Positions 3,339-17,540 of a stretch of 64,000 bases of DNA are shown piece after piece. How positions within the stretch are numbered: position 1 is the stretch's first letter; the number at the start of each line of letters is the position of its first letter. The stretch is from contig NZ_JALQCS010000001.1 in NCBI RefSeq assembly GCF_023277115.1, forward strand, positions 434,001 to 498,000. The letters run 5' to 3'. Source of the DNA: Acidithiobacillus acidisediminis. Lineage in GTDB: Bacteria; Pseudomonadota; Gammaproteobacteria; Acidithiobacillales; Acidithiobacillaceae. The notes beneath the pieces were generated by a model. That model was not told where the DNA came from, ran no database searches, and was given only the letters and a program-made list of their open reading frames with translations. The position numbers and the translations under genes are program-made.

Positions 3339-4067
3339 TCAAAGTGCGGTTTCCTGGTGCTCAGGAAGCAGCAATCGGTAGCCAATGCCCAATTCGGTGA
3401 TCAAATAACGTGGCTGATTGGGATCCTCCTCTATTTTTTCCCGCAGTCTCTGGATGTAAATACGCAAATAATGGGTTTGACCCAGATGCTTCGGCCCCCA
3501 GACCCCCATCAGCAGCTTTTGATAGGGGATGACCTGACCTGCATGCTGCAGAAACAGACGCATCATCAGAAACTCTTTCATCGTCAAAGCAACCTTACGC
3601 CCATCGTCCAGCACCAGGAGGCGGACATCCTCTTCCAGAGTCCAGGAATCCGACGGCAATAGTCCTCCCGGATTTTGCCACAGGCGGCGCAGGTGGGCGT
3701 CGAGGCGCGCAAGGAGTTCACCAATGGTGAAGGGTTTGGTCATATAGTCATCAGCGCCCTGCTGCAGGGCACGGACCTTGTCCTCCTCCCGATGTCGCGC
3801 AGAGAGCACCACAATCAGGCCCTGAGGTTGTATGCTGCGTAACCAGGAAAGGATGTCGAGGCCGTCACCATCAGGAAGCCCCAGGTCCAGCAAGGTCACA
3901 AGCCACGGGCTAAGGCCAGTCTCCTGCCGCTGCCTTGCGAGTTCCTGCACCTGCGCAAGACTACCCGCATGCTCCATGCGGTACCGATGGTCCGATTTTA
4001 AGGCGGTCCGTAGAAAGGTGACGATGGACGGGTCATCTTCCACCAACAGTAGATCCTGCAGGGCCAT
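3339..4067 (-). CDS. kdpE: KdpE, OmpR-type response regulator of potassium uptake
   Basis: The 242-residue protein has an N-terminal receiver domain (acidic pair in VEDDPS near residues 9-14, phospho-acceptor Asp about residue 61 in LLDLGLPDG, and the KPF lysine) and a C-terminal winged-helix DNA-binding domain. It is the partner of the KdpD kinase and activates kdpFABC under low K+ or osmotic stress. ATG at 4067 is preferred to an upstream in-frame codon because a strong GAGGAGAA ribosome site precedes it. The gene overlaps the end of kdpD by 35 bp, which implies coupled translation. Its likely targets are the 11-bp repeat arrays at 6861-6904 and 13659-13702. Confidence 0.95.
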   Translation of the reverse strand: MALQDLLLVEDDPSIVTFLRTALKSDHRYRMEHAGSLAQVQELARQRQETGLSPWLVTLLDLGLPDGDGLDILSWLRSIQPQGLIVVLSARHREEDKVRALQQGADDYMTKPFTIGELLARLDAHLRRLWQNPGGLLPSDSWTLEEDVRLLVLDDGRKVALTMKEFLMMRLFLQHAGQVIPYQKLLMGVWGPKHLGQTHYLRIYIQRLREKIEEDPNQPRYLITELGIGYRLLLPEHQETAL

Positions 4068-6801
4068 GTTCGTTCTCCTCTTCTGGTGGAGGGGGTGGCG
4101 TATCCAGCGGCAGGGTGAAGCAGAATCGCGCACCTGGGTTCATGTTTTGATTGCTGGCATGAATCTGCCCACCATGCATCTCGACAATGCTTTTGGCAAT
4201 GGTCAAGCCGAGCCCACTACCCCCCTCGCCAAATCTCGGCTTCACCTGACTAAAGCGCGCAAAAATTTGTTCTTCCTTGCCTGGGGGGATCCCCAAGCCT
4301 TGATCGATGACGCAAACACGCGCGATTTCTGCGTCCATCCACGCCTGTATGATGATCGGTGTGTGCGCAGGACTATAACGACAGGCGTTATCGAGCAGAT
4401 TGCTGAGGACCTGTGCGATCAGCCCGGGATCGACATGGAGCAGGGGCAGCCCAGACGCTATCTGGTACTGAAAGTCGCGCGCACGGCAGGATGGTGCCAG
4501 TTGGCGCTGTGCCATGCCAATAATTTCGGCTAGTGGAACCCATTCGCGGCGCAGATCCGTGCCCTGGGAAAGCAGACTGGCGACCCGCAGGATGCGCTCC
4601 ATCGTATCCGCCATCCGCTGCGCATCGTTGCGCAGGTTGCGAATCAAGACCTGCTGATCCTCGAGACTGATGTCTTCGCGAAAATCTTCCAGGGTGCTGA
4701 GGGTCCCCAACACAGCGGTCAACGGGGTGCGTAAATCGTGAGAAATTGCGCTGAGCAGGGTGTTTTGCATCTGCTCCATGCGCAATTGCAGCTTCGCCTC
4801 CGTACGTAACGTGAGTACCGCGGCTGCCTCCATGGCGGCAGCAATCAGACGAGCAATGGTTTCCAAATAACGCAGCCACTCCCCCGGTATCCGCTGTATC
4901 TCGAGATCACCGATCTCCATTACCCCAAGTACCTGGTCGCCATTGCATAAAGGGAGTAGCAATGCCGGGAGGGAAGACAAGGTGTCGGTGCCCATTCCCG
5001 CAGGACGCTGATTCTGGAATACCCACACCGCCCCCGATCGGCTTCGCGCCGGATCTCCCTCTTCGCTAGTGTCTACCGGGTGCCGATGGAGAGGAAGTTT
5101 TCCGTCGGGTTCCGGTAACCAAAAGCGGATATGGAAGCCCAGACTGCGGTGGATTTGGCTGATCGCTTCACTAAGTACCGCGTTTACATCTTGCTGGGCA
5201 CTGAGTTCCTGCACCAGGTTATACAGGTTGCGGGCGCGTCGCTCCCGCATTCGTGCCATCAACGCTTGATCGCGGGAGCGGGCCACCAACTGGCTGATCA
5301 GGATCGCCACGGTCAGATTGGCCAAAAACAGGAGCAGGGATTCCATGGTGTCTGGCAGATTTTTGCCTTGCCCAAAGAGAAAGAATGCCGCCTGTGCACT
5401 CACGATCACGACAATGGCCGGCCAACGTCCGTAGCGTAGGGCAGCGATGACCGACCCCATGAGCGCCAGCAGAAAAAAGGCTGCAGTTCCCAGCCAGGGG
5501 CTGAAGAGCATCCCCAATGCCGTGAGCACTACTCCTCCTGCCGCACTGATCAACAGCGGGCGGCTCGCACGCAGGCGCAATTCCCGTCGTGGAACCGCCT
5601 TGAGGTAGGCCGGATTGGCGCTGGTGTGATTCTCTGGCGAATGCAGCGGACAAATGACGATGTCGATGGCTGGGGAGTGGCGCAACAGTTGCCGCAGAGG
5701 GCTACGGAGCTGCTGCCAGAAATGACGCAAGCCGCTCCAGCTGCCCACCACGATTCGCGTCACTTGGCGCGTGCTGGCATAGGCCAGAATCTCCGTAGCC
5801 ACATTCGTCCCGGTAATACGAACCGTTTCCGCGCCCATGCGCTCGGCCAGATGAAAATGGCTCCATAGCCATGCCTGGTACTGCGGGCGTTGCCAGAGTC
5901 CTCTGGGGGTATCCACATGCACCACCAGCCATGGGCAATGCAGGGCTTGGGACAATCGGTAACCGGCGCGGATCAGTTGTTCACTCTCCGCATCGGCGCC
6001 AATGGCTACGAGCACCGTTTCTCGTAGACGCCCACCGTCGCGCGTATCCTCGGGATGCGTGGTGCGAAAGATTTGCAGCTCACTATCCATCCGATCAGCC
6101 GCGACCCGCATGGCCAATTGGCGCAAGGCCATGAGATTACTCTTGCGAAAGAAGTGCTGCATGGCGCGCGCGCCCCGCGCACCCAGATAGACCTTGTTTT
6201 CTCGCAGGCGTTGGAGAAGATCCTCCTCACTGATATCGATGAGGGTAATTTCCTCCGCATCGGTCACGACCCGATCCGGGACCGTCTCGCGCACCCGCAC
6301 CCCGGTGATCGCAAAGACCACATCGTTCACGCTCTCCAGGTGCTGCACATTGATCGTCGTGGCGACATCGATACCCGCAGAGAGCAGCTCTTCCAGGTCT
6401 TGCCAACGTTTGCTGTGGCGCGCACCGCGGGCATTGCTATGGGCCAGCTCATCCAGCAACAGGAGCTTGGGTCGACGGGCAAGGGCGGCATCCAGATCAA
6501 ATTCGCGCAGCGTCTGGGAGCCGTCGACGGGCATCAGGGGAAGATGGGGAAGTGCAGAAGCCAGGGCCTCCGTATCGCTGCGTTGATGGGTTTCCACCAC
6601 ACCCACCACAACCTCTCGCCCTTTGCTCTGCTCATCAATCCCAAAGCGCAACATGGCATAGGTTTTGCCCACCCCGGGAGCCGCACCAAAGAAGACCTTG
6701 AGTCGCCCACGCTTCTGTCGTTCGGCGGACTTTTCAATGGCTTCCAGGAGCGCTTGCGGGTCGGGTCGTTCGGGATCGGCAGGATTTCCAGCCACGGACA
6801 T
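4033..6801 (-). CDS. kdpD: KdpD, membrane sensor histidine kinase for K+/osmotic stress
   Basis: The 922-residue product has the full KdpD layout. A cytoplasmic N-terminal KdpD domain carries the Walker A GAAPGVGKTYAM (about residues 39-50). A universal-stress-protein-like domain follows, then four membrane helices, a GAF-like region, a HisKA domain with the phospho-accepting His in SAISHDLRTPL (about residue 688), and a HATPase domain with N, G1 and G2 boxes (NLLDNACRYS, DQGLGIPPG, GGSGLGLTIAKS). It controls the divergent kdp operon through KdpE. Length is close to that of E. coli KdpD. The start at 6801 lies 59 bp from the 11-bp repeat array, so autoregulation is plausible. Confidence 0.96.
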   Translation of the reverse strand: MSVAGNPADPERPDPQALLEAIEKSAERQKRGRLKVFFGAAPGVGKTYAMLRFGIDEQSKGREVVVGVVETHQRSDTEALASALPHLPLMPVDGSQTLREFDLDAALARRPKLLLLDELAHSNARGARHSKRWQDLEELLSAGIDVATTINVQHLESVNDVVFAITGVRVRETVPDRVVTDAEEITLIDISEEDLLQRLRENKVYLGARGARAMQHFFRKSNLMALRQLAMRVAADRMDSELQIFRTTHPEDTRDGGRLRETVLVAIGADAESEQLIRAGYRLSQALHCPWLVVHVDTPRGLWQRPQYQAWLWSHFHLAERMGAETVRITGTNVATEILAYASTRQVTRIVVGSWSGLRHFWQQLRSPLRQLLRHSPAIDIVICPLHSPENHTSANPAYLKAVPRRELRLRASRPLLISAAGGVVLTALGMLFSPWLGTAAFFLLALMGSVIAALRYGRWPAIVVIVSAQAAFFLFGQGKNLPDTMESLLLFLANLTVAILISQLVARSRDQALMARMRERRARNLYNLVQELSAQQDVNAVLSEAISQIHRSLGFHIRFWLPEPDGKLPLHRHPVDTSEEGDPARSRSGAVWVFQNQRPAGMGTDTLSSLPALLLPLCNGDQVLGVMEIGDLEIQRIPGEWLRYLETIARLIAAAMEAAAVLTLRTEAKLQLRMEQMQNTLLSAISHDLRTPLTAVLGTLSTLEDFREDISLEDQQVLIRNLRNDAQRMADTMERILRVASLLSQGTDLRREWVPLAEIIGMAQRQLAPSCRARDFQYQIASGLPLLHVDPGLIAQVLSNLLDNACRYSPAHTPIIIQAWMDAEIARVCVIDQGLGIPPGKEEQIFARFSQVKPRFGEGGSGLGLTIAKSIVEMHGGQIHASNQNMNPGARFCFTLPLDTPPPPPEEENEHGPAGSTVGGR

Positions 6802-6860
6802 CGCTCAGCAAAAAGTAGAAAACTTATCTTAAGTCGAAAACAAAGGAAGTCAATCCGCAT

Positions 6861-6904
6861 TATTTTTTACGGCTTTTTTATGCATTTTTTATGGGTTTTT
6901 TATA
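6861..6904 (+). promoter_or_regulatory. Four tandem 11-bp units, probable KdpE binding array upstream of the kdp operon
   Basis: Four contiguous 11-bp units can be read: TATTTTTTACG, GCTTTTTTATG, CATTTTTTATG and GGTTTTTTATA. The 11-bp period is one helical turn. The known E. coli KdpE site upstream of kdpFABC has TTTATA and TTTACA half-sites also spaced 11 bp apart, so two KdpE dimers could bind here. The array lies between divergent kdpD and the kdp structural operon, 59 bp before the first small reading frame. No convincing -10 box could be chosen. Confidence 0.75.
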
Positions 6905-6963
6905 GACGGCTGATTTTGACCGCTGATACGCTGATTTTTGTTTACGAAGGAAGAGGTGCCGAT

Positions 6964-7056
6964 ATGTTTGTTCTCTATCTTCTCTTGCTTTTGCTGCCCT
7001 TTGGCCTGGCCGCTGGGTTTGTCCTCCTACTCGATAAAATGAGGGCTTGGTCATGA
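6964..7056 (+). CDS. 30-aa single-helix membrane peptide leading the kdp operon
   Basis: An ATG at 6964 follows a GAAGGAAGAGG ribosome-binding stretch and encodes 30 residues. The first two thirds are almost entirely hydrophobic (a run such as LYLLLLLLPFGLAAGF), and the end is basic and aromatic (DKMRAWS). Its TGA overlaps the kdpF ATG as ATGA, so translation is probably coupled. It is as short as KdpF, but differs from it in sequence, and a separate KdpF follows. A role as an additional small subunit or stabiliser of the Kdp complex is inference; no homologue is recognised. Confidence 0.6.
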   Translation: MFVLYLLLLLLPFGLAAGFVLLLDKMRAWS

Positions 7057-7145
7057 GCGTGCTCGTGTGGGTCGGTTTGGGGCTGGCAGTGTTCCTGCTG
7101 GTGTATTTGGCGGTATTTCTGATCTATCCGGAGCGCTTCCTATGA
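7053..7145 (+). CDS. kdpF: KdpF, small stabilising subunit of the K+-transporting ATPase
   Basis: This 30-residue reading frame has one hydrophobic helix (VWVGLGLAVFLLVYLAVFLI) followed by a short polar tail YPERFL. KdpF of other bacteria is about 29 residues with the same design and immediately precedes kdpA. KdpF sits in the membrane against KdpA and stabilises the complex. It overlaps the preceding small gene and kdpA by ATGA on both sides, so a continuous coupled translation chain is seen. Confidence 0.85.
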   Translation: MSVLVWVGLGLAVFLLVYLAVFLIYPERFL

Positions 7146-8896
7146 CCAACGCGATCCTTCTCACCCTGGCAGTATTTGTCGTTACCCTGGGCTTGGCCTG
7201 GCCCATCGGCGCCTATATGGCGCGGGTCTATGGGGGCGAGTCCTTTTGGGCCAGCCACTTTCTGGGCGGCCTCGAACGGGGCATCTACTGGGCGGCCGGG
7301 GTGTCGCCCAAACAGGATATGAGCTGGAAGCGCTATGCGCTGCTCTGGCTGCTCTTCAACCTCGTGGGCGGACTGTTTCTGTATTTCCTACTGTATTTCC
7401 AGAACTTTTTTCCCCTCAATCCACAAGGCTTTCCCAGCCCCGGCGCCGGCCTCAGCTTCAATACCGCGGCGTCCTTCATCACCAATACCAACTGGCAGGC
7501 ATACTCGGGGGAAACGACCATGAGTTACCTCAGCCAAGTGCTGGGCATAGGGATTCAATACTTCTTCTCGGCGGCCTCTGGCATGGTGTTGGCGGTGGCC
7601 TTGACGCGCGGCTTCTCCCGCACCGAAAGCCACGGAATCGGTAATCTCTGGGTCGACCTGACCCGCTCGGTGCTCTATATCCTGCTCCCGCTGGCCATTC
7701 TTCTGGGCCTGTTTCTGGTGAGTCAGGGGGCGATCCAGAACTTTTCCGCCTACCTGCAGGTGCATCTCATCGATCCCTTTGTCCAGGGCGGTAAATTGAT
7801 TACCCAGCAGACCCTGGCCATGGGTCCAGCGGGGTCCCAGACCGCCATCGAGATGCTGGGCAACAACGGTGGCGGCTTTTTCAATGCCAATTGTGGCCAG
7901 CCGTTCCAGAGCCCCACGGGGATGACCAACTTTGTGCTCAACGTCGCGGAATTGCTGTTGCCCTTCTCCCTCCTATTTTACTTTGGTCGCGCCATTGCCA
8001 GCCGCAAGCTGGGCTGGGCCCTGGTGGCGGTGGCGCTCTTGCTGCTGGTACCGCTGGCTGTATTCAGCGAGCAACAGGACCTAGCCGGCAACCCGGTCTT
8101 TACCCAGTTGGGGGTGACGCAGGCGCATACGGCCGCCCTCGCTGGCGGCGGCAATATGGAGGGGGTCGAAGATCGGTTTGGTGTTGCCGGCAGCGCGCTC
8201 TTTGGGGCTTCCACCACGGGGACATCCACCGGCGCCTCCAGTTCTTCCTACGACTCCTTCATGCCGTTGTCTGGTGGCGTCAACCTCTTCCTCATGCAGT
8301 TAGGTGAAGTGGCGCCGGGTGGTGTCGGTTCCGGGGTGGCGTCTTTGGTGGGATTTTTCATCATCGCCGTCTTCATTGGTAGTTTGATGGTGGGCCGAAC
8401 GCCGGAGTTTCTGGGCAAAAAGCTGGAAGCCTATGAGATGAAAATGGCGGCCTTGGCAATCTTGATCATGCCAATTCTGATTCTCGTCGGTACGGCGCTC
8501 GCCGTCTCCCTGCCGGGTGGTCGGGACGCCATTCTCAATCCGGGCCCCCATGGCTTCTCCGAAATCCTCTATGCCTTGACCAGTCCGGCCAACAATAACG
8601 GCAGTTCGTTCGGGGGCCTCAATGCCGATACGGTGTTCTACAACATCTTGACCGGCATCGTGGTCCTGATGAATCGGTATTTGACCTACTTTCCCCTCTT
8701 GGCGATTGCCGGGTCCTTGGCGGCGAAGCGGCGGATGGCAGCGGGTGTGGGCACCTTGAACCCGACCACCCCGCTTTTTGTGGTCTTCTCGACCGGGGTG
8801 ATCTTGCTGGTAGGGGCGCTGAACTTCATCCCTGCCCTCGCCCTGGGACCGGTGGCCGAGGCCTTGTCCTTGCCCGCCCTGCATTTCCATCCTTGA
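7142..8896 (+). CDS. kdpA: KdpA, potassium-translocating subunit of the Kdp ATPase
   Basis: The 584-residue membrane protein has ten or more hydrophobic helices and the repeated selectivity-filter elements of the KdpA/Trk-like fold, visible as NTNWQAYSGE, GNNGGGFFNAN, GEVAPGGVGSG and SPANNNGSSFGG. It binds and conducts K+ with high affinity, powered by KdpB. ATG at 7142 is chosen because it gives the expected N-terminus and overlaps kdpF by ATGA. Length matches the family. Confidence 0.97.
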   Translation: MTNAILLTLAVFVVTLGLAWPIGAYMARVYGGESFWASHFLGGLERGIYWAAGVSPKQDMSWKRYALLWLLFNLVGGLFLYFLLYFQNFFPLNPQGFPSPGAGLSFNTAASFITNTNWQAYSGETTMSYLSQVLGIGIQYFFSAASGMVLAVALTRGFSRTESHGIGNLWVDLTRSVLYILLPLAILLGLFLVSQGAIQNFSAYLQVHLIDPFVQGGKLITQQTLAMGPAGSQTAIEMLGNNGGGFFNANCGQPFQSPTGMTNFVLNVAELLLPFSLLFYFGRAIASRKLGWALVAVALLLLVPLAVFSEQQDLAGNPVFTQLGVTQAHTAALAGGGNMEGVEDRFGVAGSALFGASTTGTSTGASSSSYDSFMPLSGGVNLFLMQLGEVAPGGVGSGVASLVGFFIIAVFIGSLMVGRTPEFLGKKLEAYEMKMAALAILIMPILILVGTALAVSLPGGRDAILNPGPHGFSEILYALTSPANNNGSSFGGLNADTVFYNILTGIVVLMNRYLTYFPLLAIAGSLAAKRRMAAGVGTLNPTTPLFVVFSTGVILLVGALNFIPALALGPVAEALSLPALHFHP

Positions 8897-8905
8897 GGAA
8901 TCGTC

Positions 8906-10975
8906 ATGACACAGCACACGTCGAAATCGGAATCTGTGGATCAGGGCTACTGGGCTGCCATTTTCCGGGAAGCGGTCAAAGAGAGCTTTCGCAAGCTCAA
9001 GCCTCAGGCGCAGTGGCGCAACCCGGTCATGTTCGTGGTCTATGTTGGCGCCATTCTGGTGACCTTGATGGGATTGGAAGGGCTCGGAGCGAAGCACGCC
9101 GATGCCGGGTTTGACTTGATCGTCGCTCTTTGGCTCTGGCTGACCCTGCTCTTTGCCAACTTTTCCGAGGCCCTGGCCGAGGGCCAGGGCAAGGCCCAGG
9201 CCAGCAGCCTGCGTTCAGCGAAGCGGGAGGTCGTTGCCTATAAGATCGAGCGCGCCGACCCCAAGGCCAGCGTCGTGGAGGTGGCCGGACATGAGCTGCA
9301 GCGCGATGATCTAGTGCTGGTCCAGGCCAATGAAGTCATCCCGGCGGATGGTGAAGTGGTCCAGGGCGTTGCCTCCGTCGATGAAAGCGCCATCACCGGC
9401 GAGAGTGCGGCGGTGATTCGCGAGCAAGGGGGAGACCGCAGTGCCGTGACAGGAGGTACTACGGTCCTCTCCGACTGGCTGATCATCCGCATCACCAGCC
9501 GCCCCGGCGACACCTTCCTCGACCGGATGATCGCCTTGGTGGAGGGCGCTGCCCGGCGCAAGACCCCCAACGAGATCGCCCTGGCGGTGCTCTTGGTGGT
9601 GCTGACCCTGGTGTTTCTGGTGGTCACCGTGACCCTCTATCCCTTCTCCTTTTATAGCGTCCATTTTGCTGCCCACAGCGGCCGGGTAGTCTCGCCGACG
9701 GTCTTGGTCGCCCTTCTGGTATGCCTCATCCCCACCACCATCGGGGCGTTGCTGCCCGCTATCGGTATTGCCGGCATCATGCGCCTGCTCAAGGCCAAGG
9801 TGGTGGCCAAATCCGGGCGCGCCATCGAGGCCGCCGGGGACGCCGACGTGCTGTTCCTCGACAAGACCGGCACCATCACCTACGGCAACCGGCAGGCGGC
9901 AGAGCTCCTTCCTGCCCCCGGGGTCGATCTGGCAGAGCTCGGTGCTGCGGCACGGCATGCGTCCTTGAGTGATGACACCCCCGAGGGGAAGAGCATCGTC
10001 CAACTGGTGGATCGCCTCTCCTTGCCCCTACCAGCGATGTCGGAGGAGGGCACCTGGATTCCCTTCAGTGCCGAGACGCGCATGAGTGGCGTGGATAGTA
10101 GCGGTCAACAATTCCGTAAGGGCGCACCTGACGCCATCCGTCGTTGGGTCGAACAGGCCGGCGGCAAGTGGCCCCGGGCGGTGGACGAGGATATCGAAAA
10201 GATCGCCCAAACGGGGGCTACACCCTTGGTGGTGGCAGTGAATCAGCAGGTCTTGGGGAGCATCAGTCTCAAGGACATCGTCAAACCCGGCATCCGGGAA
10301 CGCTTTGCAGAACTGCGCCAGATTGGTATTCGGACGGTGATGATTACCGGAGACAATCCCATCACCGCCGGCGCCATAGCCGCAGAGGCCGGCGTCGATG
10401 ACTATCTGGCCGAAGCCAAGCCCCAGGACAAACTGGATCGGATCCGTGAGTACCACGATAAGGGCCATCTCGTTGCCATGACCGGCGATGGGACCAATGA
10501 CGCCCCCGCCCTGGCCCAGGCCGACGTGGCGGTGTGTATGGCCAGTGGCACCCAGGCGGCACGGGAGGCGGCGAACATCGTCGATTTGGAGTCAGACCCC
10601 ACCAAGCTGCTGGAAATCGTGCGCTTGGGCAAGCAACTGCTGGTCACGCGCGGGGCACTGACCACCTTCAGTATCGCCAACGACGTGGCCAAGTATTTTG
10701 CCATCATCCCAGCCGCCTTCGTGAGCACCTACCCGCAATTGGGGGCCTTGAACGTGATGGGCCTGAATAGCCCCAAGGACGCCATCCTCTCGGCGGTGAT
10801 TTTCAATGCCGTGGTGATCCCGTTCTTGATCCCACTGGCCCTGAAGGGAGTGAAATACCGCGCCATCAGTGCCGATCAGCTGCTCCTGCGCAATGTACTG
10901 ATTTATGGGCTCGGTGGCCTGATCGCGCCGTTTATCGGCATCAAGCTCATTGACCTGTTGTTGACTGTCCTGTGA
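8906..10975 (+). CDS. kdpB: KdpB, P-type ATPase catalytic subunit of K+ uptake
   Basis: The 689-residue protein carries the P-type ATPase core: the actuator TGES motif ([12 protein letters not shown]), the phosphorylation motif DKTGTIT with Asp at about residue 319, the nucleotide-binding KGAPDAI segment, and the hinge [16 protein letters not shown]. It hydrolyses ATP to drive K+ through KdpA. A GAGGAA ribosome site lies just upstream of its ATG, and it is nine bases after kdpA. Size and motifs agree with orthologues. Confidence 0.97.
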
Positions 10976-10983
10976 GGTACACC

Positions 10984-11577
10984 ATGTGGCAATCCCTGCG
11001 GCAAACCGTAATGACCTTCCTCCTCCTCGGCCTCTGTGTGGGCGTCGCTTATCCCACCCTGATGACCGCATTGTCCCAGCTGCTGTTCCCGCAGCAGGCC
11101 AACGGCTCGCTGATTCGGGAGCACGGCAAGGTGGTAGGCTCGGCGCTCATCGGCCAGTATTTCACCAGCCCCCAATACTTCTGGGGGCGACCATCGGCTA
11201 CCGACCCCGTCCCCTATGATGCCGCGAATTCCGGGGCGTCCAATTTGGGTCCGAGCAACCCCGTACTCTTCCGCCATATCGCCCAGCGCGTTGCCTATCT
11301 GCGCAAGATGGACCCGGCCGAAGGCCAGCGGCCGGTACCCGTGGATCTGGTGACCTCGTCCTTCAGTGGACTGGACCCGGACATCAGCATTGCCGCTGCC
11401 CAATATCAAGTCGCACGCGTCGCCGCAGCTGGCCATCTGCCAATAAAAGAGGTGGCGGATCTCGTGCACCAGTATACGCACTGGCCACTGCTGCCCTTCA
11501 TCGGCGAGCCAGTGGTGCGGGTCTTGCCCTTGAATCTGGCACTACAGCGGGCTTATCAGCAGCGTCATGGGAAATGA
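10984..11577 (+). CDS. kdpC: KdpC, periplasmic-facing subunit of the Kdp ATPase
   Basis: The 197-residue product has one N-terminal membrane helix (TFLLLGLCVGVAYPTLMTAL), followed by KdpC-conserved stretches: SALIGQYF, YFWGRPSAT, SGASNLGPSNP, and the C-terminal SGLDPDISIAAA and RVLPLNLAL. KdpC assists ATP binding and complex assembly. The ATG at 10984 is preferred to an upstream GTG that overlaps the kdpB stop, because a GAGGT site precedes it. Its stop overlaps the next small gene by ATGA. Confidence 0.96.
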   Translation: MWQSLRQTVMTFLLLGLCVGVAYPTLMTALSQLLFPQQANGSLIREHGKVVGSALIGQYFTSPQYFWGRPSATDPVPYDAANSGASNLGPSNPVLFRHIAQRVAYLRKMDPAEGQRPVPVDLVTSSFSGLDPDISIAAAQYQVARVAAAGHLPIKEVADLVHQYTHWPLLPFIGEPVVRVLPLNLALQRAYQQRHGK

Positions 11578-11660
11578 TACTTGAAGTTCTACATTTCCTG
11601 ACCTGGGGCGGGATCGTACTTGCTCTAGTCATAATCTTGGTCGGCATCTTTTTGATGTAG
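11574..11660 (+). CDS. 28-aa membrane peptide at the end of the kdp operon
   Basis: An ATG overlapping the kdpC stop (ATGA) opens a 28-codon frame ending in TAG at 11658-11660. The peptide has a short amphipathic start (MILEVLHFLTW) and a hydrophobic helix (IVLALVIILVGIFLM). It resembles KdpF only in size and hydrophobicity. The stop/start overlap, identical to the kdpF-kdpA junction, is the main evidence that it is translated. Function is unknown. Confidence 0.55.
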   Translation: MILEVLHFLTWGGIVLALVIILVGIFLM

Positions 11661-11678
11661 CAGGGACAACGCCTGGGT

Positions 11679-11697
11679 AGAGGCCATCATTGCCTCT
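11679..11697 (+). terminator. Short hairpin between the kdp operon and the porin gene
   Basis: AGAGGC and GCCTCT form a 6-bp stem with a 7-base loop. No T-run follows, so it may only attenuate transcription or protect the mRNA end. Confidence 0.25.
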
Positions 11698-11756
11698 TCC
11701 CAGCCACGAGCCGCATATCTGCTAACGGAACTACTACCTTACACTAGGGTGAAATA

Positions 11757-12923
11757 ATGAAACAGAGAACAAGCATCTGGATTTTTACCACCGCAATGGC
11801 CAGTGTGCTGGGCATACCCGTGGCACAGGCATCCTTGAATTTGCCCAATCCGATCAACGTGGATGCCGGACCTTTGGGCAAAATCGGCGTGCAGGGCGTA
11901 GCCAGCGCCATGGGATTTTGGCAGGACAATCCCCAAGGCACGCCTGGCACTCTCGGGGCAAAGTATGCTGGAGCAACCATTACCAATGGCATGGTAATTG
12001 TGCAAAAGAGTAGTGGTCTGGTGCAGTTTTACGCGCAGGCGGGAGCCTATGGTTTTCCGACCCTGGCGGCCTCGCTGGCAGGCGCCAACCCCACTTCCGC
12101 GATCAACGATTTTGGCGCATTGCCCGTTGCTTACCTGAAAATTGCGCCAAGCTCCAATTATTCCGTAGAGATCGGCAAGCTCCCGACCTTAATTGGTGCG
12201 GAGGGCGGCTTTACCTACCAGAACATTAATGTCGAGCGTGGCTTGCTCTGGGATATGGAGCCCATCGTCAGCCGAGGCATTCAATTTAACGCGAGCGCAG
12301 GGCCCGTGAGTGCTTCGCTCTCCTTGAATGATGGCTATTACTCTAATCGTTATAATGTACTAAGCGGCATCGTGACGTACGCCATCAATGGCGCCAATAC
12401 GGTCAGCTTCTATGCCGATGGCCCCCTTGGTAAGGTACGGACTTCAGCTAATAATGCCGCCTACTCGGCCATTGGTACCGTCAGCCAGATCTACGGCTTG
12501 GAATATGAATACAGCTCTGGTCCTTGGATGATTGAGCCCTATTTCCAGTATATGCATACGCCTAAAAGTGTGCAAGCCGGAGTTCCCCATTCGTTTGACA
12601 ACTATGGCGGATCAATTCTGCTAAATTACAGCTACAACAGTGACTGGTCTATGGGCGCCAGGGTCGAATATCTAGAAGTTGGTGGACCACTGGGATACGG
12701 ACTTAATCTGCACTCCGTCGCTTCGACACTCACAGATTTACCCGCAGATTCCCACGCCTGGTCGCTAACTATAACACCAACTTACCAGGCCGGGGACTTT
12801 TTCGCGCGCGCAGAACTGTCTTATGTAACGGCTTCCACGCCAACGGGTACGGGGTTTGCCGGACGAAGTGGTCTGGCAAAAAATCAGGTGCGCGGCATAG
12901 TGGAAACTGGACTTCTGTTTTAA
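11757..12923 (+). CDS. OmpL-like beta-barrel porin (BBP2 type)
   Basis: The 388-residue protein begins with a signal peptide ending near AQA-S and then shows alternating strand-like segments rich in Gly, Tyr, Ser and Asn, ending in a terminal Phe, as expected of an outer-membrane barrel. Segments such as EIGKLPTLIGAEGGFTYQN and NVERGLLWDMEPIVSRG are typical of the putative beta-barrel porin-2 (OmpL-like) family. A ribosome site AGGGTGAAATA precedes the ATG. It lies 96 bp after the last small kdp gene on the same strand, so it could give K+ or solutes access to the periplasm for Kdp; that link is inference. Confidence 0.75.
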   Translation: MKQRTSIWIFTTAMASVLGIPVAQASLNLPNPINVDAGPLGKIGVQGVASAMGFWQDNPQGTPGTLGAKYAGATITNGMVIVQKSSGLVQFYAQAGAYGFPTLAASLAGANPTSAINDFGALPVAYLKIAPSSNYSVEIGKLPTLIGAEGGFTYQNINVERGLLWDMEPIVSRGIQFNASAGPVSASLSLNDGYYSNRYNVLSGIVTYAINGANTVSFYADGPLGKVRTSANNAAYSAIGTVSQIYGLEYEYSSGPWMIEPYFQYMHTPKSVQAGVPHSFDNYGGSILLNYSYNSDWSMGARVEYLEVGGPLGYGLNLHSVASTLTDLPADSHAWSLTITPTYQAGDFFARAELSYVTASTPTGTGFAGRSGLAKNQVRGIVETGLLF

Positions 12924-13285
12924 CCCACCGTTGCGCGCCAGAAAGCAAGATGTCGATCCTTACAGTGAGAGTGCAGCCCGGCTTCCTTGAAGAAACCTTG
13001 GCAGCACTCTCCCCAGTTCCATTTGCCTCCTGGTGGATGACTGAAGTGCGCGTTCTCGATCAGTGCAAAGCCCGTTGGGTACTCCTGCATAGTGCCATAA
13101 TTGAGGTTACAGAGGCGTTCGAGCTGCAGTTGGAAATCGTTCTTGAGGCGCAGTTTCTCCTTGAAACGCTTTCCATTCTGACCAGTCTGAGTGGTGTCCA
13201 CGAGATGTACGTTATTGAAGCCGGCATCGCTCGACAAACCCTTCCTGGAGAGATGGCCGAAGAAATAGCGGCCATAAAAATATGC
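12920..13285 (-). pseudogene. Unidentified open frame, probable gene remnant
   Basis: A 122-codon open frame on the minus strand has no ATG; only a TTG at 13237 could start it. Its composition (many aromatic residues, His and Cys, e.g. KWNWGECCQGFF and HCKDRHLAFW) looks like real protein rather than shadow, but I do not recognise a family. The opposite strand also carries an open frame starting at ATG 12950 (122 aa, low-complexity Leu/Glu/Val) that overlaps the following permease fragment. Only one can be real. The stretch sits between a complete porin gene and a truncated permease, so decay is likely. Confidence 0.3.
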
Positions 13286-13310
13286 TCACCGATTCCTGTG
13301 GGAACGGCCT

Positions 13311-13574
13311 ATGAATAGAACCACACGTTTCCGTCGGGGGTTGTCCCAACTCGACCTGATCGTAATCGGGATTGGCGGGGCAATGGGCACGGGGGTACTG
13401 TTTGGTACTGCTGGCATGGCAGCTCTGGCGGGGCCAGGTGTCGTGTTGGCATGGGTACTGGGCGCCGTGATGGGCTTGAATGCGTTATACCCGCACTTGG
13501 TGACACCGACCGGTACGCCGACCTTACAGGCCGATTTTGTTCGCTATTCTGGAGCACGGTCATCGCTGCTCTAG
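13311..13574 (+). pseudogene. N-terminal fragment of an APC-type amino acid permease
   Basis: The 87-residue frame begins with a basic N-terminus and GLSQLDLIVIGIGGAMGTGV, followed by GPGVVLAWVLGAVMG. These match TM1-TM2 of amino acid/polyamine (APC) permeases, which are normally 430-500 residues long. The frame stops after an RYSGA segment that corresponds to the loop after TM2, and nothing recognisable of the permease follows. It is therefore truncated and probably nonfunctional. The KdpE-like array begins 85 bp downstream. Confidence 0.6.
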
Positions 13575-13658
13575 CCTTCGTTTTGGAGCGTTCACTCACG
13601 CCAGTAGCTCAGCGAGCAGGAGCGGTTCGTATTGCCCTCAGACTGATCCGTACAGATG

Positions 13659-13702
13659 CATTATTTATGCATTTTTTACGCATTATTTATGGGTTTTTTA
13701 TG
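13659..13702 (+). promoter_or_regulatory. Second four-unit 11-bp KdpE-like array, upstream of the glutamate 5-kinase
   Basis: Four contiguous units are CATTATTTATG, CATTTTTTACG, CATTATTTATG and GGTTTTTTATG. They have the same period, orientation and unit number as the array before the kdp operon, and the last 21 bases differ from the corresponding kdp stretch by one base. The array ends 66 bp before the preferred start of the kinase gene (59 bp in the kdp case). I infer that KdpE also controls the downstream genes. Confidence 0.7.
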
Positions 13703-13768
13703 GAAAGTCGATCTCCACGGAGCTAGCCTGATCTTGGTAGGATGAGGAACCCATGGAGACTAATCTCG

Positions 13769-14722
13769 ATGATGTATAACATCAATGCAGAAAATCAGTA
13801 TGGCTGGCGTGAAATTCGCAAAGAATGCCAACGTCGTGCAAAGCGCTGGGTAGTCAAGGTTGGAACCAGTTCTTTGGTGCAGGTAGATGGCGCGCTCGAT
13901 CAAAAGAAGATTGCCACTCTCTTGCAACAAATTTTGGCTATGAAGCAAGGGGGGCTGGAGGTCGTTATGGTCCTCTCCGGCGCGGTCGGCGTCGGCGCAT
14001 CCCGGCTGGAACGGCCCGTTGGCAAGCTCTCCGAGCGGCAACGCCGAGTAGCGGCAAGCGTAGGGCAGAGCTGCATCATTCAGGCCCTATTACAGGCCTT
14101 GAGCCGATTTTCGCAGCTGGGTGATGGGAAAGAGCTGGAGCTGAGTCAGATTTTATTGTCCCGCGATGACTTTTCCCATCGGAAACGGTACCGCAATGCG
14201 AAAATGTTGCTCCGGGACCTGCTACGCGAAGACACCATACCGGTCGTCAACGAAAATGATGTCATTGGCAGTCGCCTGCACAACCTAGGGAATAATGATC
14301 GGGTTGCGGCGCTGATTGCGTCCATGATCGACGCACAACTCTTGGTGTTGCTGACCGATCAGATAGGCCTGTACACCGGCAACCCCCATCAGGATGCGCA
14401 GGCACAACTGATCACCGAGGGGATCGCCGAAGACCCTCAATTGCTCAAAATGGCGACCGGCTCTGGGAAGTTTGGAACTGGCGGCATGTTGACGAAACTG
14501 CTCGCCGCCCGTATGGCTGCACAATGCGGAACAGACACCATCATTGCGTCGAGTGCGGAGCGAAACATTCTGTTGCGGATCGCTGAGGGCGAGCCAGTCG
14601 GTACTTTCCTGTATCAAAAGAAACGGCTGGTAAAGACCCGCTTGGACGAGCGGCTGGATCACCTCGCACAGCGGATGTTTGGCTATCCAAATGCTGCGCA
14701 AATCGCTATCGGCGCTGTGTAG
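13769..14722 (+). CDS. proB: Glutamate 5-kinase lacking the PUA domain
   Basis: The 317-residue protein has the amino-acid kinase fold of ProB: RWVVKVGTSSL near the N-terminus, LSGAVGVGASRL, VAASVGQSCIIQ, PVVNENDVIG, GNNDRVAALIA, LLTDQIGLYTGNP and KFGTGGMLTKL. The reaction is ATP-dependent phosphorylation of glutamate, the first step to proline. E. coli ProB has 367 residues with a C-terminal PUA domain; here the sequence ends soon after the kinase motif VGTFLYQ, with a short basic tail. ATG 13769 is preferred for its GGAG site; an in-frame ATG at 13742 is the alternative. No proA is nearby. Proline as an osmoprotectant would fit control by the upstream KdpE-like array. Confidence 0.85.
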   Translation: MMYNINAENQYGWREIRKECQRRAKRWVVKVGTSSLVQVDGALDQKKIATLLQQILAMKQGGLEVVMVLSGAVGVGASRLERPVGKLSERQRRVAASVGQSCIIQALLQALSRFSQLGDGKELELSQILLSRDDFSHRKRYRNAKMLLRDLLREDTIPVVNENDVIGSRLHNLGNNDRVAALIASMIDAQLLVLLTDQIGLYTGNPHQDAQAQLITEGIAEDPQLLKMATGSGKFGTGGMLTKLLAARMAAQCGTDTIIASSAERNILLRIAEGEPVGTFLYQKKRLVKTRLDERLDHLAQRMFGYPNAAQIAIGAV

Positions 14723-14768
14723 CCATCGATTGCCCATATTTTCCAGAATGCTCAAGAAGAGGAGTGTT

Positions 14769-14972
14769 ATGATGGACTTGCGCGCGATCTTGCAAAAAGT
14801 GGAAACCGACGGATATCTATGGGCTGTCAGCCATCCTCACGCAACAGCGGGGCAACTTGAGGAGGCATGTTACCAGAAATATTCGGACTGGGAAGCGGAT
14901 GTATTTCTATATGCCTTTGAGAAGGGGTGGGCGAGAGCCAAACGGCTATCAAAGCGTCTATTTCCTGACTGA
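14769..14972 (+). CDS. 67-aa protein, paralogue of the next gene, function unknown
   Basis: An AAGAGGAG ribosome site precedes ATG 14769. The product is a short soluble-looking protein with a core G-Y-L-W-A-x-x-H-P-x-A-T, then a conserved Tyr and an L-Y-A-F-x-x-G segment, and a basic tail. It aligns without gaps over 46 positions with the next gene product (12 identities, all at these motif positions), so the two are paralogues. It lies 46 bp after the glutamate kinase and may be in the same KdpE-like regulated unit. I do not recognise the family. Confidence 0.65.
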   Translation: MMDLRAILQKVETDGYLWAVSHPHATAGQLEEACYQKYSDWEADVFLYAFEKGWARAKRLSKRLFPD

Positions 14973-15035
14973 TAGAGGCACTGGATAATTCCCCAGTGGT
15001 ACTGATGTTACTCAAGTTCGTAATGGAGCTTAACC

Positions 15036-15230
15036 ATGAGAGACTTTCCAACAGAAGTTAAAGAGGCGGAGCGCACAGGGTTCGCTTGGGCGGAAAAGCA
15101 TCCGAATGCCAGCTCAGACGAAGCGAATCAGGCCGCTGGCGCATTATATCCGACAGACAAGGATGGGGCGTTATATGTTGCCTTCATCAACGGATATTTT
15201 TCCCAGAGAGATGCGTCTCGATTAGGATAG
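15036..15230 (+). CDS. 64-aa protein, paralogue of the preceding gene, function unknown
   Basis: An AATGGAGC site precedes the ATG. The product has T-G-F-A-W-A-E-K-H-P-N-A-S-S, a later Tyr, and L-Y-V-A-F-I-N-G-Y, which line up with the motifs of the 67-residue neighbour. It has no signal peptide, membrane helix or Cys. The duplication with sequence divergence but conserved spacing argues that both genes are or were under selection. Confidence 0.65.
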   Translation: MRDFPTEVKEAERTGFAWAEKHPNASSDEANQAAGALYPTDKDGALYVAFINGYFSQRDASRLG

Positions 15231-15849
15231 CGCGGATTGTATGGTAGGGCTAATGAGAGAAGCGCGTTTTTGACTCATTTTATGGAGGACACAGCAACAA
15301 TTTTTAGCAGGAATAGTTGCTGGATGTGGATAGCCCTTTACTCGGACTCCTCTCTGAAGGGGTAATGGCCCAAAGGAGGTCAATGAATTTGAATCCGTGG
15401 CGTTCGAAGCTATGGCCCAAGGCCTCTGCACTACCAGCAACAATTCCTGTCTCTGTGCTTTCCTACTTGCGTTGATCAGCAGACAGGCTGGCAAGGGCAC
15501 GCCAATGCCATGCACTTGCCGCCCAACTGATTTTTGGTCCTGAGGCCGGATGCTGAACGTTCCACAATGTCTGAAACTCGGTTAGCGCGGCAGAGCGACG
15601 CCTGGCATCTACGCTTTCCCTATGTGTATGAGCGTAAGGATGTTGAGGAGGGGCGGATCAACTGCTAGAAACAGCGTTTGATCTGATCGTCGCTCCCCAG
15701 AGCTTGTGGGCCCTGGCGCCCGCCGAGGCGCTGACCCCCTTATGTCGCGATGTTGCCGAGATAAGTGAGCCGGAGAGTCGCGAACAGGCTTGGGCTCCGT
15801 CGCCTTGGAATCACGCTCTCCCTTCAGGCTCATCCTTCATTGGAAGAGG
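15231..15849 (+). other. About 620 bases with no supported gene
   Basis: I see no reading frame with a convincing start, ribosome site and protein-like composition on either strand here. The right end probably includes the distal non-coding tail of the adjacent IS5-type remnant. Confidence 0.4.
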
Positions 15850-16229
15850 CTCACTCCTGACCATCGCTCTGGGCGAAGTAAGCCTGCCGAGAAGGCCAAA
15901 CGGCGCATGTTGTACACGATCACCATCATGCCCATGGCAAAGGAAGCCCGGGCCTAACCGATGATACGAATCTGCTTGCCACCCCACTAGGTGATCGCAG
16001 CAAAGACGTGCTCAAACCGCGCTCGCACCTTGGCAATGCGCCGATTACGTCGTTCCTTGCAGGCAGAAATGGGTTTTTCCTCTTTAGCATAGCGCTGAAT
16101 GTGGATGCGACAACCTTGCGCTTGTAACCGCTCTTCCCATTCTGCGCAAACATAGCCCTTATCGGCATAGATCTCAGCCCTGTGGTTCCATTCGTCGAGG
16201 GCGGCCTCCAGGTGCTTGGAGTTGAGCAA
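15850..16229 (-). pseudogene. IS5-family transposase remnant (C-terminal part)
   Basis: Reading leftward from 16229 the frame gives a transposase C-terminus: Y-A-D-K-G-Y with a catalytic Asp, then RRNRRIAKVRARFEHVFAAI containing the last catalytic Glu. Past a TGA-type break at about 15987, the same frame continues IRIIG, stop, ARASFAMGMMVIVYNMRRLA, which is the usual end of IS5-family transposases. The N-terminal half is missing and at least two in-frame stops are present, so it is inactive. Confidence 0.75.
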
Positions 16230-16529
16230 ACGAAGTCTCCATGGGGCATATCATGCCTGATCAGTCCGATCGCGATACCTCTTTTTGTGTTGCGTTTTTT
16301 GATACGCGCTCACGATATTTTTGCACTTTACCAATGCGCTTCATATCACGATCATAGCCATGTGGCGATTTTTGAGAGATATCGTCTGAACATATGGAGT
16401 CAAAGGCATGACCACAACCGGTTAGCGCCGGGCGTCTTCGAAGCCGACGAAACGAAAAGATGGCCTAGCTTGGATTGGCCTTCAAAACTGATCTCGAATT
16501 TATGTAAAACATTTGGGAGATAATAACTT
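16230..16529 (+). other. AT-richer intergenic stretch before the secreted phosphorylase-like gene
   Basis: This roughly 300-base stretch marks a shift to lower GC than the flanking genome. No gene or clear promoter could be defined. It begins at the broken edge of the IS5 remnant. Confidence 0.3.
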
Positions 16530-17540
16530 ATGAACTTTGCACGATATATAATCTATTTTTTATCGGCTTTTTGTTTTCTATGGCCTTCCGTTGACAATGC
16601 GCAGGCCAATCAGAAGCCCTCGGATCTGGGCGGTAATGGGTATTTAGGCCTATTAATTCCCGTGGGCCCTGCTCATTATGGCGTCATCCTTAAAAAGTTT
16701 AAAAAGATTAAATCCGTTCACATAGGTCAGTTTGATTATCAAATTGGAAGTATTTATAAGATTCCTGTAGTTATCTGCATCCAGCCGTTTGGCGGAGAGT
16801 TTACGCGCGCGCTTACTGCGCAGGTTATGGTCGATCACTTTAATATAAAAGCCCTACTTTATCCTGGGACATCTGGCGCCCACCTTCCGCCAGGACAGAT
16901 GCGTGTAGGAGATATTGTAATAGGAACAAAACAAGTAAACTTTGGAAATTTTTACATGTCGCCGACAGGTAGCCTCGTCCCAGATGAGTTTTCTGGAAAG
17001 TCCAGTCTTCAGGATTATCAATATTTTTTCCTAAACAAAAAGCTGGAAGAATATACCGCTTGTGCGGCACAATACGTTGCTGACAGAGAAAAGTTACCAT
17101 CGTGGATTAACGGCGAATTCAAAATACAAAAGCCAGAAATATATTATTATGGAATACAGGGAACGTCTTCAATGTGGCTTGCCGATAAATCTTTTATCAA
17201 GAAAACAGACGACGTTTTTCATGAGGTAGACGAAGATGGGGATTGGTTTTCAGCTACGGTTGCAAAATTGGCACAAATTCCTTTTATCGAGGTGAGCACT
17301 ATATCCGACAGCGTATTTGAATTTAGCGGAAACGGCGTTCCTCCTCAAGGTTCGCATCGGAAGACTGCGTCGCAAATAACACAGAATATAAGCGACAAGA
17401 TAATGCTAAGAGTAATTAAGATCTATGGCACAAATCTACTTAAAAAGAAATATATTTATCCGTCTGGCGATCCGTATCCGAATTATTTTTACCAGACCCC
17501 GAAGGATTCTCGTGGGTTGGTTGAAAGTTGTAAGAAATAG
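16530..17540 (+). CDS. Secreted nucleoside-phosphorylase/nucleosidase-like protein
   Basis: The 336-residue product starts with a signal peptide (hydrophobic YIIYFLSAFCFLW, cleavage near AQA-N). The core resembles the PNP_UDP_1 fold: IGSIYKIPVVICIQPFGG, an AQVMVDHFNIKALLYPGTSG strand-loop, GDIVIGTKQVNFG, and late FIEVSTISDSV, in which the Asp of ISD matches the catalytic Asp of nucleosidases. The usual E-M-E-x-A motif is replaced by DEDGDWFSATVAK. These enzymes cleave the glycosidic bond of nucleosides. Low GC and AT-rich codons suggest acquisition. A TonB-dependent receptor follows on the same strand, so coupling to uptake of a nucleoside-like compound is conceivable. Confidence 0.6.
   Translation: MNFARYIIYFLSAFCFLWPSVDNAQANQKPSDLGGNGYLGLLIPVGPAHYGVILKKFKKIKSVHIGQFDYQIGSIYKIPVVICIQPFGGEFTRALTAQVMVDHFNIKALLYPGTSGAHLPPGQMRVGDIVIGTKQVNFGNFYMSPTGSLVPDEFSGKSSLQDYQYFFLNKKLEEYTACAAQYVADREKLPSWINGEFKIQKPEIYYYGIQGTSSMWLADKSFIKKTDDVFHEVDEDGDWFSATVAKLAQIPFIEVSTISDSVFEFSGNGVPPQGSHRKTASQITQNISDKIMLRVIKIYGTNLLKKKYIYPSGDPYPNYFYQTPKDSRGLVESCKK

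Follow-up and report, generated by a model that had tools for sequence, protein, structure and literature searches.

Paired KdpE-type arrays may couple potassium uptake to a divergent glutamate 5-kinase in Acidithiobacillaceae

Main finding

The 64,000-nucleotide stretch of Acidithiobacillus acidisediminis DNA analyzed here, which is called the window throughout, carries two arrays of four KdpE-type half-sites, one 5' of kdpFABC and one 5' of proB2, a paralogue of the glutamate 5-kinase gene proB. Comparison with relatives suggests that KdpDE induces K+ uptake together with a glutamate kinase that is desensitized to proline and would convert K+-glutamate to proline, a reading to which we assign a probability of about two in three. 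The features on which it is based are as follows.

3339 to 4067, minus strand: kdpE, response regulator; best PDB matches E. coli KdpE 4kny/4kfc (E 8.6e-47)
4033 to 6801, minus strand: kdpD, sensor kinase; best NCBIfam model KdpD PRK10490 (E 6.6e-219), at 729 bits below the curated cut-off of 1123
6866 to 6904, plus strand: array 1, four KdpE-type half-sites with an 11-bp period, between the divergent kdpD and kdpF, 5' of kdpF
6927 to 6932, plus strand: -10-like hexamer TACGCT at an offset of 28 nt, counted from the first base of the last half-site, as also in G004, G005, and G007
6964 to 7056, plus strand: kdpF, 30 aa; open reading frame assigned by position and length
7067 to 8896, plus strand: kdpA (TIGR00680)
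8906 to 10975, plus strand: kdpB (TIGR01497)
10972 to 11577, plus strand: kdpC (TIGR00681 and PRK00315)
11757 to 12923, plus strand: BBP2-family outer-membrane porin (PF07642, E 7.7e-59); homologues beside kdp/proB2 in relatives
13664 to 13702, plus strand: array 2, four KdpE-type half-sites with an 11-bp period, 5' of proB2; conserved at the loci of relatives
13724 to 13729, plus strand: -10-like hexamer TAGCCT at an offset of 27 nt, counted likewise, as also at proB2 of G007
13769 to 14722, plus strand: proB2, PUA-less glutamate 5-kinase paralogue with D148N and E143L (E. coli numbering) and the catalytic residues kept
14769 to 14972, plus strand: sm1, 67 aa, predicted three-helix protein
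15036 to 15230, plus strand: sm2, 64 aa, paralogue of sm1 (23% identity, 15 shared positions)

Two arrays with the same architecture

The half-sites of array 1 start at 6866 (TTTACG), 6877 (TTTATG), 6888 (TTTATG), and 6899 (TTTATA), those of array 2 at 13664 (TTTATG), 13675 (TTTACG), 13686 (TTTATG), and 13697 (TTTATG), all with N5 spacers. Both arrays are in coding-strand orientation, each pointing at the next gene, and they are 84% identical over 45 nt. An earlier sequence-only reading had placed the second array at 13659 to 13702, which is correct within a few bases, and its statement that unit, number (four), period (11 bp), and orientation equal those of the kdp array is confirmed by the half-sites. 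It had also described the distances to the next gene as nearly the same, which holds since the array ends about 60 nt before the start codon of kdpF (ATG at 6964) and about 67 nt before that of proB2 (ATG at 13769, preceded by GGAG).

The possibility of a chance repeat was dropped after comparison with random windows and a genome-wide scan. Four-half-site arrays occur twice in the 64-kb window, even three half-sites occurred in 0 of 200 random windows generated with a first-order Markov model, and exact half-site triplets are confined to arrays 1 and 2 in the whole genome (2.8 Mb); the array observation is thereby confirmed. An Rfam search of 6700 to 16600 gave no match.

The gene order of the window is kdpFABC, porin, orf122, permease fragment, array, proB2, and two small proteins. 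The 122-aa orf122 (12950 to 13318), located between the porin gene and the permease fragment, has no Pfam match and no homologue at the kdp loci of the relatives examined. The amino-acid permease fragment (13311 to 13574; PF00324, E 0.006) just 5' of array 2 is probably a remnant.

Conservation in relatives

A search of 40 relatives that allowed at most one mismatch revealed arrays at kdp in most kdp-positive genomes and none in seven kdp-less genomes; kdp-less G001 has two one-mismatch matches, away from kdp. Nearly all arrays detected at this threshold are located at kdp, proB2, the porin gene, or an amino-acid permease-proB operon. An array lies 5' of proB2 or of a porin-small protein-proB2 run in G000, G007, G008, G010, G013, G014, G018, G019 (two copies), G022, G024, and G040, and a second 5' array is present at every intact proB2 locus whose upstream DNA was covered by the scan, whereas none was found upstream in G043, where proB2 is a fragment, or in G009, which has no proB2. 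The sequence-only reading had named beforehand a lack of conservation near proB orthologues as evidence that would speak against it; the array is conserved in relatives, and the only proB2 locus of the scan at which it was not found is the fragment of G043.

The neighborhood is conserved together with the array, and both the small-protein family and the porin are part of it. G007, G008, G018, and other genomes of genus g2 have the order kdpED, array, kdpFABC, small protein, array, proB2, and BBP2 porin, while G010 and G013 have kdpABC, array, porin, small protein, proB2, and a second kdpA. Within a genus, kdp and proB2 arrays are identical at 29.7 of 38 positions, compared with 21.7 of 38 for arrays of other genera, as expected for a shared regulator; g2 arrays are weaker in their first two half-sites. 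Among 11 genomes of other families, exact four-half-site arrays were often simple tandem repeats, and kdp transporter genes were present at none of the loci examined.

Some clusters have been duplicated or extended. In G013, the kdpABC-array-porin-small protein-proB2 block is duplicated on a separate 172-kb contig (L043, G013:C2), apparently a plasmid, and is followed there by a second kdpA and a kdpE. G019 (L047:4773-11731) has an extra kdpA just 5' of a second kdpABC, with its own array before each kdpA. In g2 genomes, the small protein and proB2 are separated by a small conserved membrane-like open reading frame (ORF) that has no Pfam match (L057:13982-14227).

Regulator and promoter geometry

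The KdpE site of E. coli is TTTATA-N5-TTTACA, in which TTTA is essential, and residues R193, R200, and T215 of KdpE are important for DNA binding (PMC3264566). The half-sites of both arrays match this site, and each array contains at least two 6-bp half-sites with TTTA that are directly repeated every 11 bp, the arrangement required of a KdpE operator. All three residues are kept in 16 of the 17 KdpE proteins compared, that of the window included, the remaining one being truncated, and among solved chains the E. coli KdpE structures give the best alignment with the KdpE of the window. The recognition helix has the sequence LRIYIQRLRE in the window but VRLYIKRLRE in g2, and the sixth half-site base changes in step with it, being mostly G in genus g1 and A in g2; this co-change between genera is suggestive.

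A consensus sigma-70 scan remained at chance and thus lends no support, and a fixed-spacing test was used instead. The offset between the first base of the last half-site and a -10-like hexamer is 28 nt at kdp and 27 nt at proB2 for the six g1 arrays and 19 nt for the 14 g2 arrays (e.g., TACAAT, TAACCT, and TAGGCT), and the spacing scores of both genera were equalled by 0 of 1000 shuffled sets; the five arrays of g4 showed no significant common -10 position. The array is located 5' of its putative target promoter at constrained spacing in g1 and g2, and the geometry common to kdp and proB2 arrays within each of these genera is as expected if one activator serves both.

Many OmpR-family regulators bind 11-bp direct repeats, and the array could therefore be the target of a different OmpR/PhoB-family regulator that recognizes 11-bp TTTA repeats. 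We consider this improbable, since the arrays track the kdp cluster, being absent from the seven kdp-less genomes and adjoining kdpDE in the others, and since their sequence matches the characterized KdpE half-site and the same array precedes kdpFABC itself. It is even less credible that array 2 is a passive duplicate of the kdp promoter that stems from a rearranged mobile kdp cluster and has no regulatory role. Rearrangement and duplication of the clusters are indeed frequent (G013 and G019 have copies), mobile elements around kdp have been noted (PMC8886135), the permease fragment directly precedes array 2 in the window, and in G020 the array persists although proB2 is gone, so that persistence alone is no proof of a role. 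Against a passive copy, three genera have kept the array with intact half-sites and period while the surrounding DNA changed, and the -10 spacing is constant in two of these three. Control of the array by KdpE is strongly supported by the comparison and is, in our view, very probable. The earlier proposal of a KdpE regulon reaching beyond kdpFABC gains support, as a predicted control, from the half-site match, the KdpE contact residues, and the conservation of the array.

ProB2, a divergent glutamate 5-kinase paralogue

The sequence-only reading had recognized a proB-like gene and two small proteins 3' of the array, and it was right on both: proB2 is a homologue of glutamate 5-kinase (TIGR01027, 233.8 bits, above the cut-off of 186) and is followed by the ORFs at 14769 to 14972 and 15036 to 15230. 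The genome of the window encodes three ProB proteins, of which, according to Pfam, the obgE-linked and the mscS/putA-flanked ones consist of AA_kinase and PUA domains and ProB2 of AA_kinase only; as PUA is common in bacteria but not universal, its absence is not decisive for membership among glutamate 5-kinases. The second full-length PUA-bearing ProB (L002:1216-2370) is encoded between an MscS-type gene and a putA-like gene, and the three ProB proteins may divide labor.

ProB2 proteins score 415 to 521 bits compared with at most 370 bits for all other full-length ProB, which is a clean separation, and they form one side of a branch with a support of 96/94, a monophyly that could be inflated because several ProB2 branches are long (end branch of the window protein, 2.42). 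Judged by these comparisons, ProB2 is a distinct lineage with D148N and no PUA, unlike ordinary proB. Among 29 Acidithiobacillaceae genomes, proB2 is present in 13 of the 21 with kdp (the fragment of G043 counted) and in 0 of the 8 without (Fisher p 0.003, which overstates independence because the genomes are related). In the eight kdp-positive genomes that lack it, several contigs end just after kdpC or within the cluster. proB2 and kdp are linked on one contig in most of the 13 genomes, and the link runs via the small protein or a second contig in G040 and for one contig of G042. In a class-wide sample of 369 genomes, matches to proB2 at E<=1e-108 were restricted to family members. A scan of genome contigs with the proB2 alignment was dominated by housekeeping ProB among the matches listed, and a kdp-linked proB2 might still occur outside the family; 78 outside ProB among these listed matches served for the residue comparison.

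Asparagine occupies position 148 in 13/13 ProB2 but in none of the 39 other ProB of the family and none of the 78 outside ProB among the matches listed, all 117 of which have D or E (39 family plus 78 outside, among the matches listed). D148, which is conserved in other ProB and lies outside the TIGR01027 profile definition, is thus missing from ProB2. E143 is kept in 77/78 outside ProB among the matches listed and replaced in 11/13 ProB2, the exception being the G008/G018 pair; the position is L, S, G, N, D, or E in ProB2 and L in the window. The ProB2 of g2 in addition have N at position 107, a change that alone says little because N107 occurs naturally in 5/78 outside ProB among the matches listed. 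The catalytic and substrate residues K10, S50, N134, D137, N149, D150, T169, D170, and K217 are intact in 13/13 ProB2.

In E. coli, D107N or E143A causes a loss of allosteric regulation, D148/N149 has been reported as a proline-binding motif, and D148 to D150 have a predicted part in glutamate binding as well (PMC5418603). The Bacillus osmostress kinase ProJ is naturally altered at the E143 position (PMC13198045). Loss of PUA from E. coli ProB abolishes proline-induced aggregation and leaves inhibition in place (PMC6099280); desensitization of ProB2, if real, should therefore come from the changes in the kinase domain.

Outside the ProB2 lineage, the mscS-linked ProB have A (in the protein of L002) or P (elsewhere) at the proline-feedback position 143 across the family. 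Both g4 genomes have a third exact array (G013 L042:6933-6970, minus strand; G010 L054:7483-7520, plus strand) 5' of an amino-acid permease gene (PF13520), which is followed by an mscS-type proB with P at 143. The pairing of a further array with a proB that lost E143 strengthens the reading that leads from K+ to proline.

The function that we favor for ProB2, with some reserve, is that of a glutamate kinase released from feedback, which would supply proline under K+ or turgor stress. Even if the array is a KdpE operator, ProB2 might have no part in proline osmoprotection, D148N having created a new substrate specificity or a kinase-like protein that senses glutamate or regulates. Since a part in the binding of both glutamate and proline is ascribed to D148 (PMC5418603), D148N could weaken ProB2 or change its substrate. 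ProB2 evolves fast, as the end branch of 2.42 of the window protein illustrates, neither proA nor proC was recognized in the cluster, and the genome-wide scan of the window's genome found neither of these two genes, which would complete the pathway, next to an array. We nevertheless regard this alternative as unlikely, given that 13/13 ProB2 retain every other catalytic and substrate residue tested, that 4/4 ProB2 scanned are above the TIGR01027 cut-off, and that E143 and, in g2, D107 are altered at the feedback positions of known desensitized enzymes.

Small proteins

The sm1/sm2 family was found in 14 of the 29 family genomes, mostly inside the kdp neighborhood, and a profile search of a 398-genome phylum sample gave a match only in the genome of the window. 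The AlphaFold model of sm1 has three confident helices (pLDDT 92); searches with sm1 gave no PDB match, no NCBIfam match, and no convincing Pfam match. It is a guess that the small proteins assist ProB2 or Kdp as a cofactor or regulate them.

Proposed mechanism and significance

In the mechanism that we propose, the array would be a combined KdpE operator and promoter. KdpD would signal low K+ or turgor stress and give rise to phosphorylated KdpE, which is expected to occupy the four tandem half-sites as two dimers and to activate a promoter with its -10 at constant spacing downstream. The first array copy would drive kdpFABC, the second proB2 together with a species-dependent set of small protein(s) and BBP2 porin. 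ProB2 would most likely be an active glutamate 5-kinase on which proline no longer exerts feedback inhibition. A cell with too little K+ or turgor would then combine K+ scavenging with a diversion of glutamate, which is the counter-ion of K+, into proline, an osmolyte independent of K+. The arrangement suggests that one K+ sensor controls both K+ uptake and a back-up osmoprotectant. With the odds evenly balanced, we extend this to the view that KdpDE of Acidithiobacillaceae is a switch between two osmolyte strategies, its paired operators inducing K+ scavenging along with a dedicated proline-insensitive ProB2, a lineage-restricted small protein, and a porin.

Explanations of how emergency K+ uptake in bacteria gives way to organic osmolytes usually invoke indirect effects. 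If the proposed mechanism is true, a K+ sensor would directly control the committed step of proline synthesis, which would make the link genetic and testable and define a K+-sensor-controlled, feedback-released branch of the pathway. ProB2 offers a set of natural glutamate 5-kinase variants for studying proline feedback, and the finding points to salt-tolerance genes in biomining bacteria.

Comparison with known systems

The kdp clusters of Acidithiobacillia, their duplicates, and a plasmid copy have been described (PMC8886135), and the kdpDE/kdpFABC clusters, duplicates, and plasmid copy seen here are the same; neither proline nor glutamate 5-kinase is mentioned in the main text of that study. 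In the open-licence literature, we found no description of a KdpE-proline regulon or of a link to a glutamate 5-kinase in Acidithiobacillus, nor of the arrays, proB2, and the small proteins.

The arrays resemble the KdpE operator of E. coli kdpFABC in their TTTAYR half-sites, the 11-bp direct repeat, the location 5' of kdpF, and the kept KdpE contact residues, but they consist of four half-sites instead of two, and a second copy precedes a metabolic gene. The nearest likeness of ProB2 is Bacillus ProJ (proHJ, proHJA), a stress-linked second glutamate 5-kinase beside a housekeeping ProB whose feedback residue equivalent to E143 is changed as well. ProJ has R at this position, whereas ProB2 has L, S, G, N, D, or a retained E; ProB2 furthermore adds D148N, lacks PUA, is predicted to be under KdpE control, and is linked to the kdp neighborhood, while the ProJ operon contains proH/proA. 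With the feedback-resistant ProB mutants of E. coli (D107N and E143A), the family shares N107 in the ProB2 of g2 and A or P at 143 in the mscS-linked ProB, the difference being that the E. coli proteins are laboratory mutants and those of the Acidithiobacillaceae natural paralogues.
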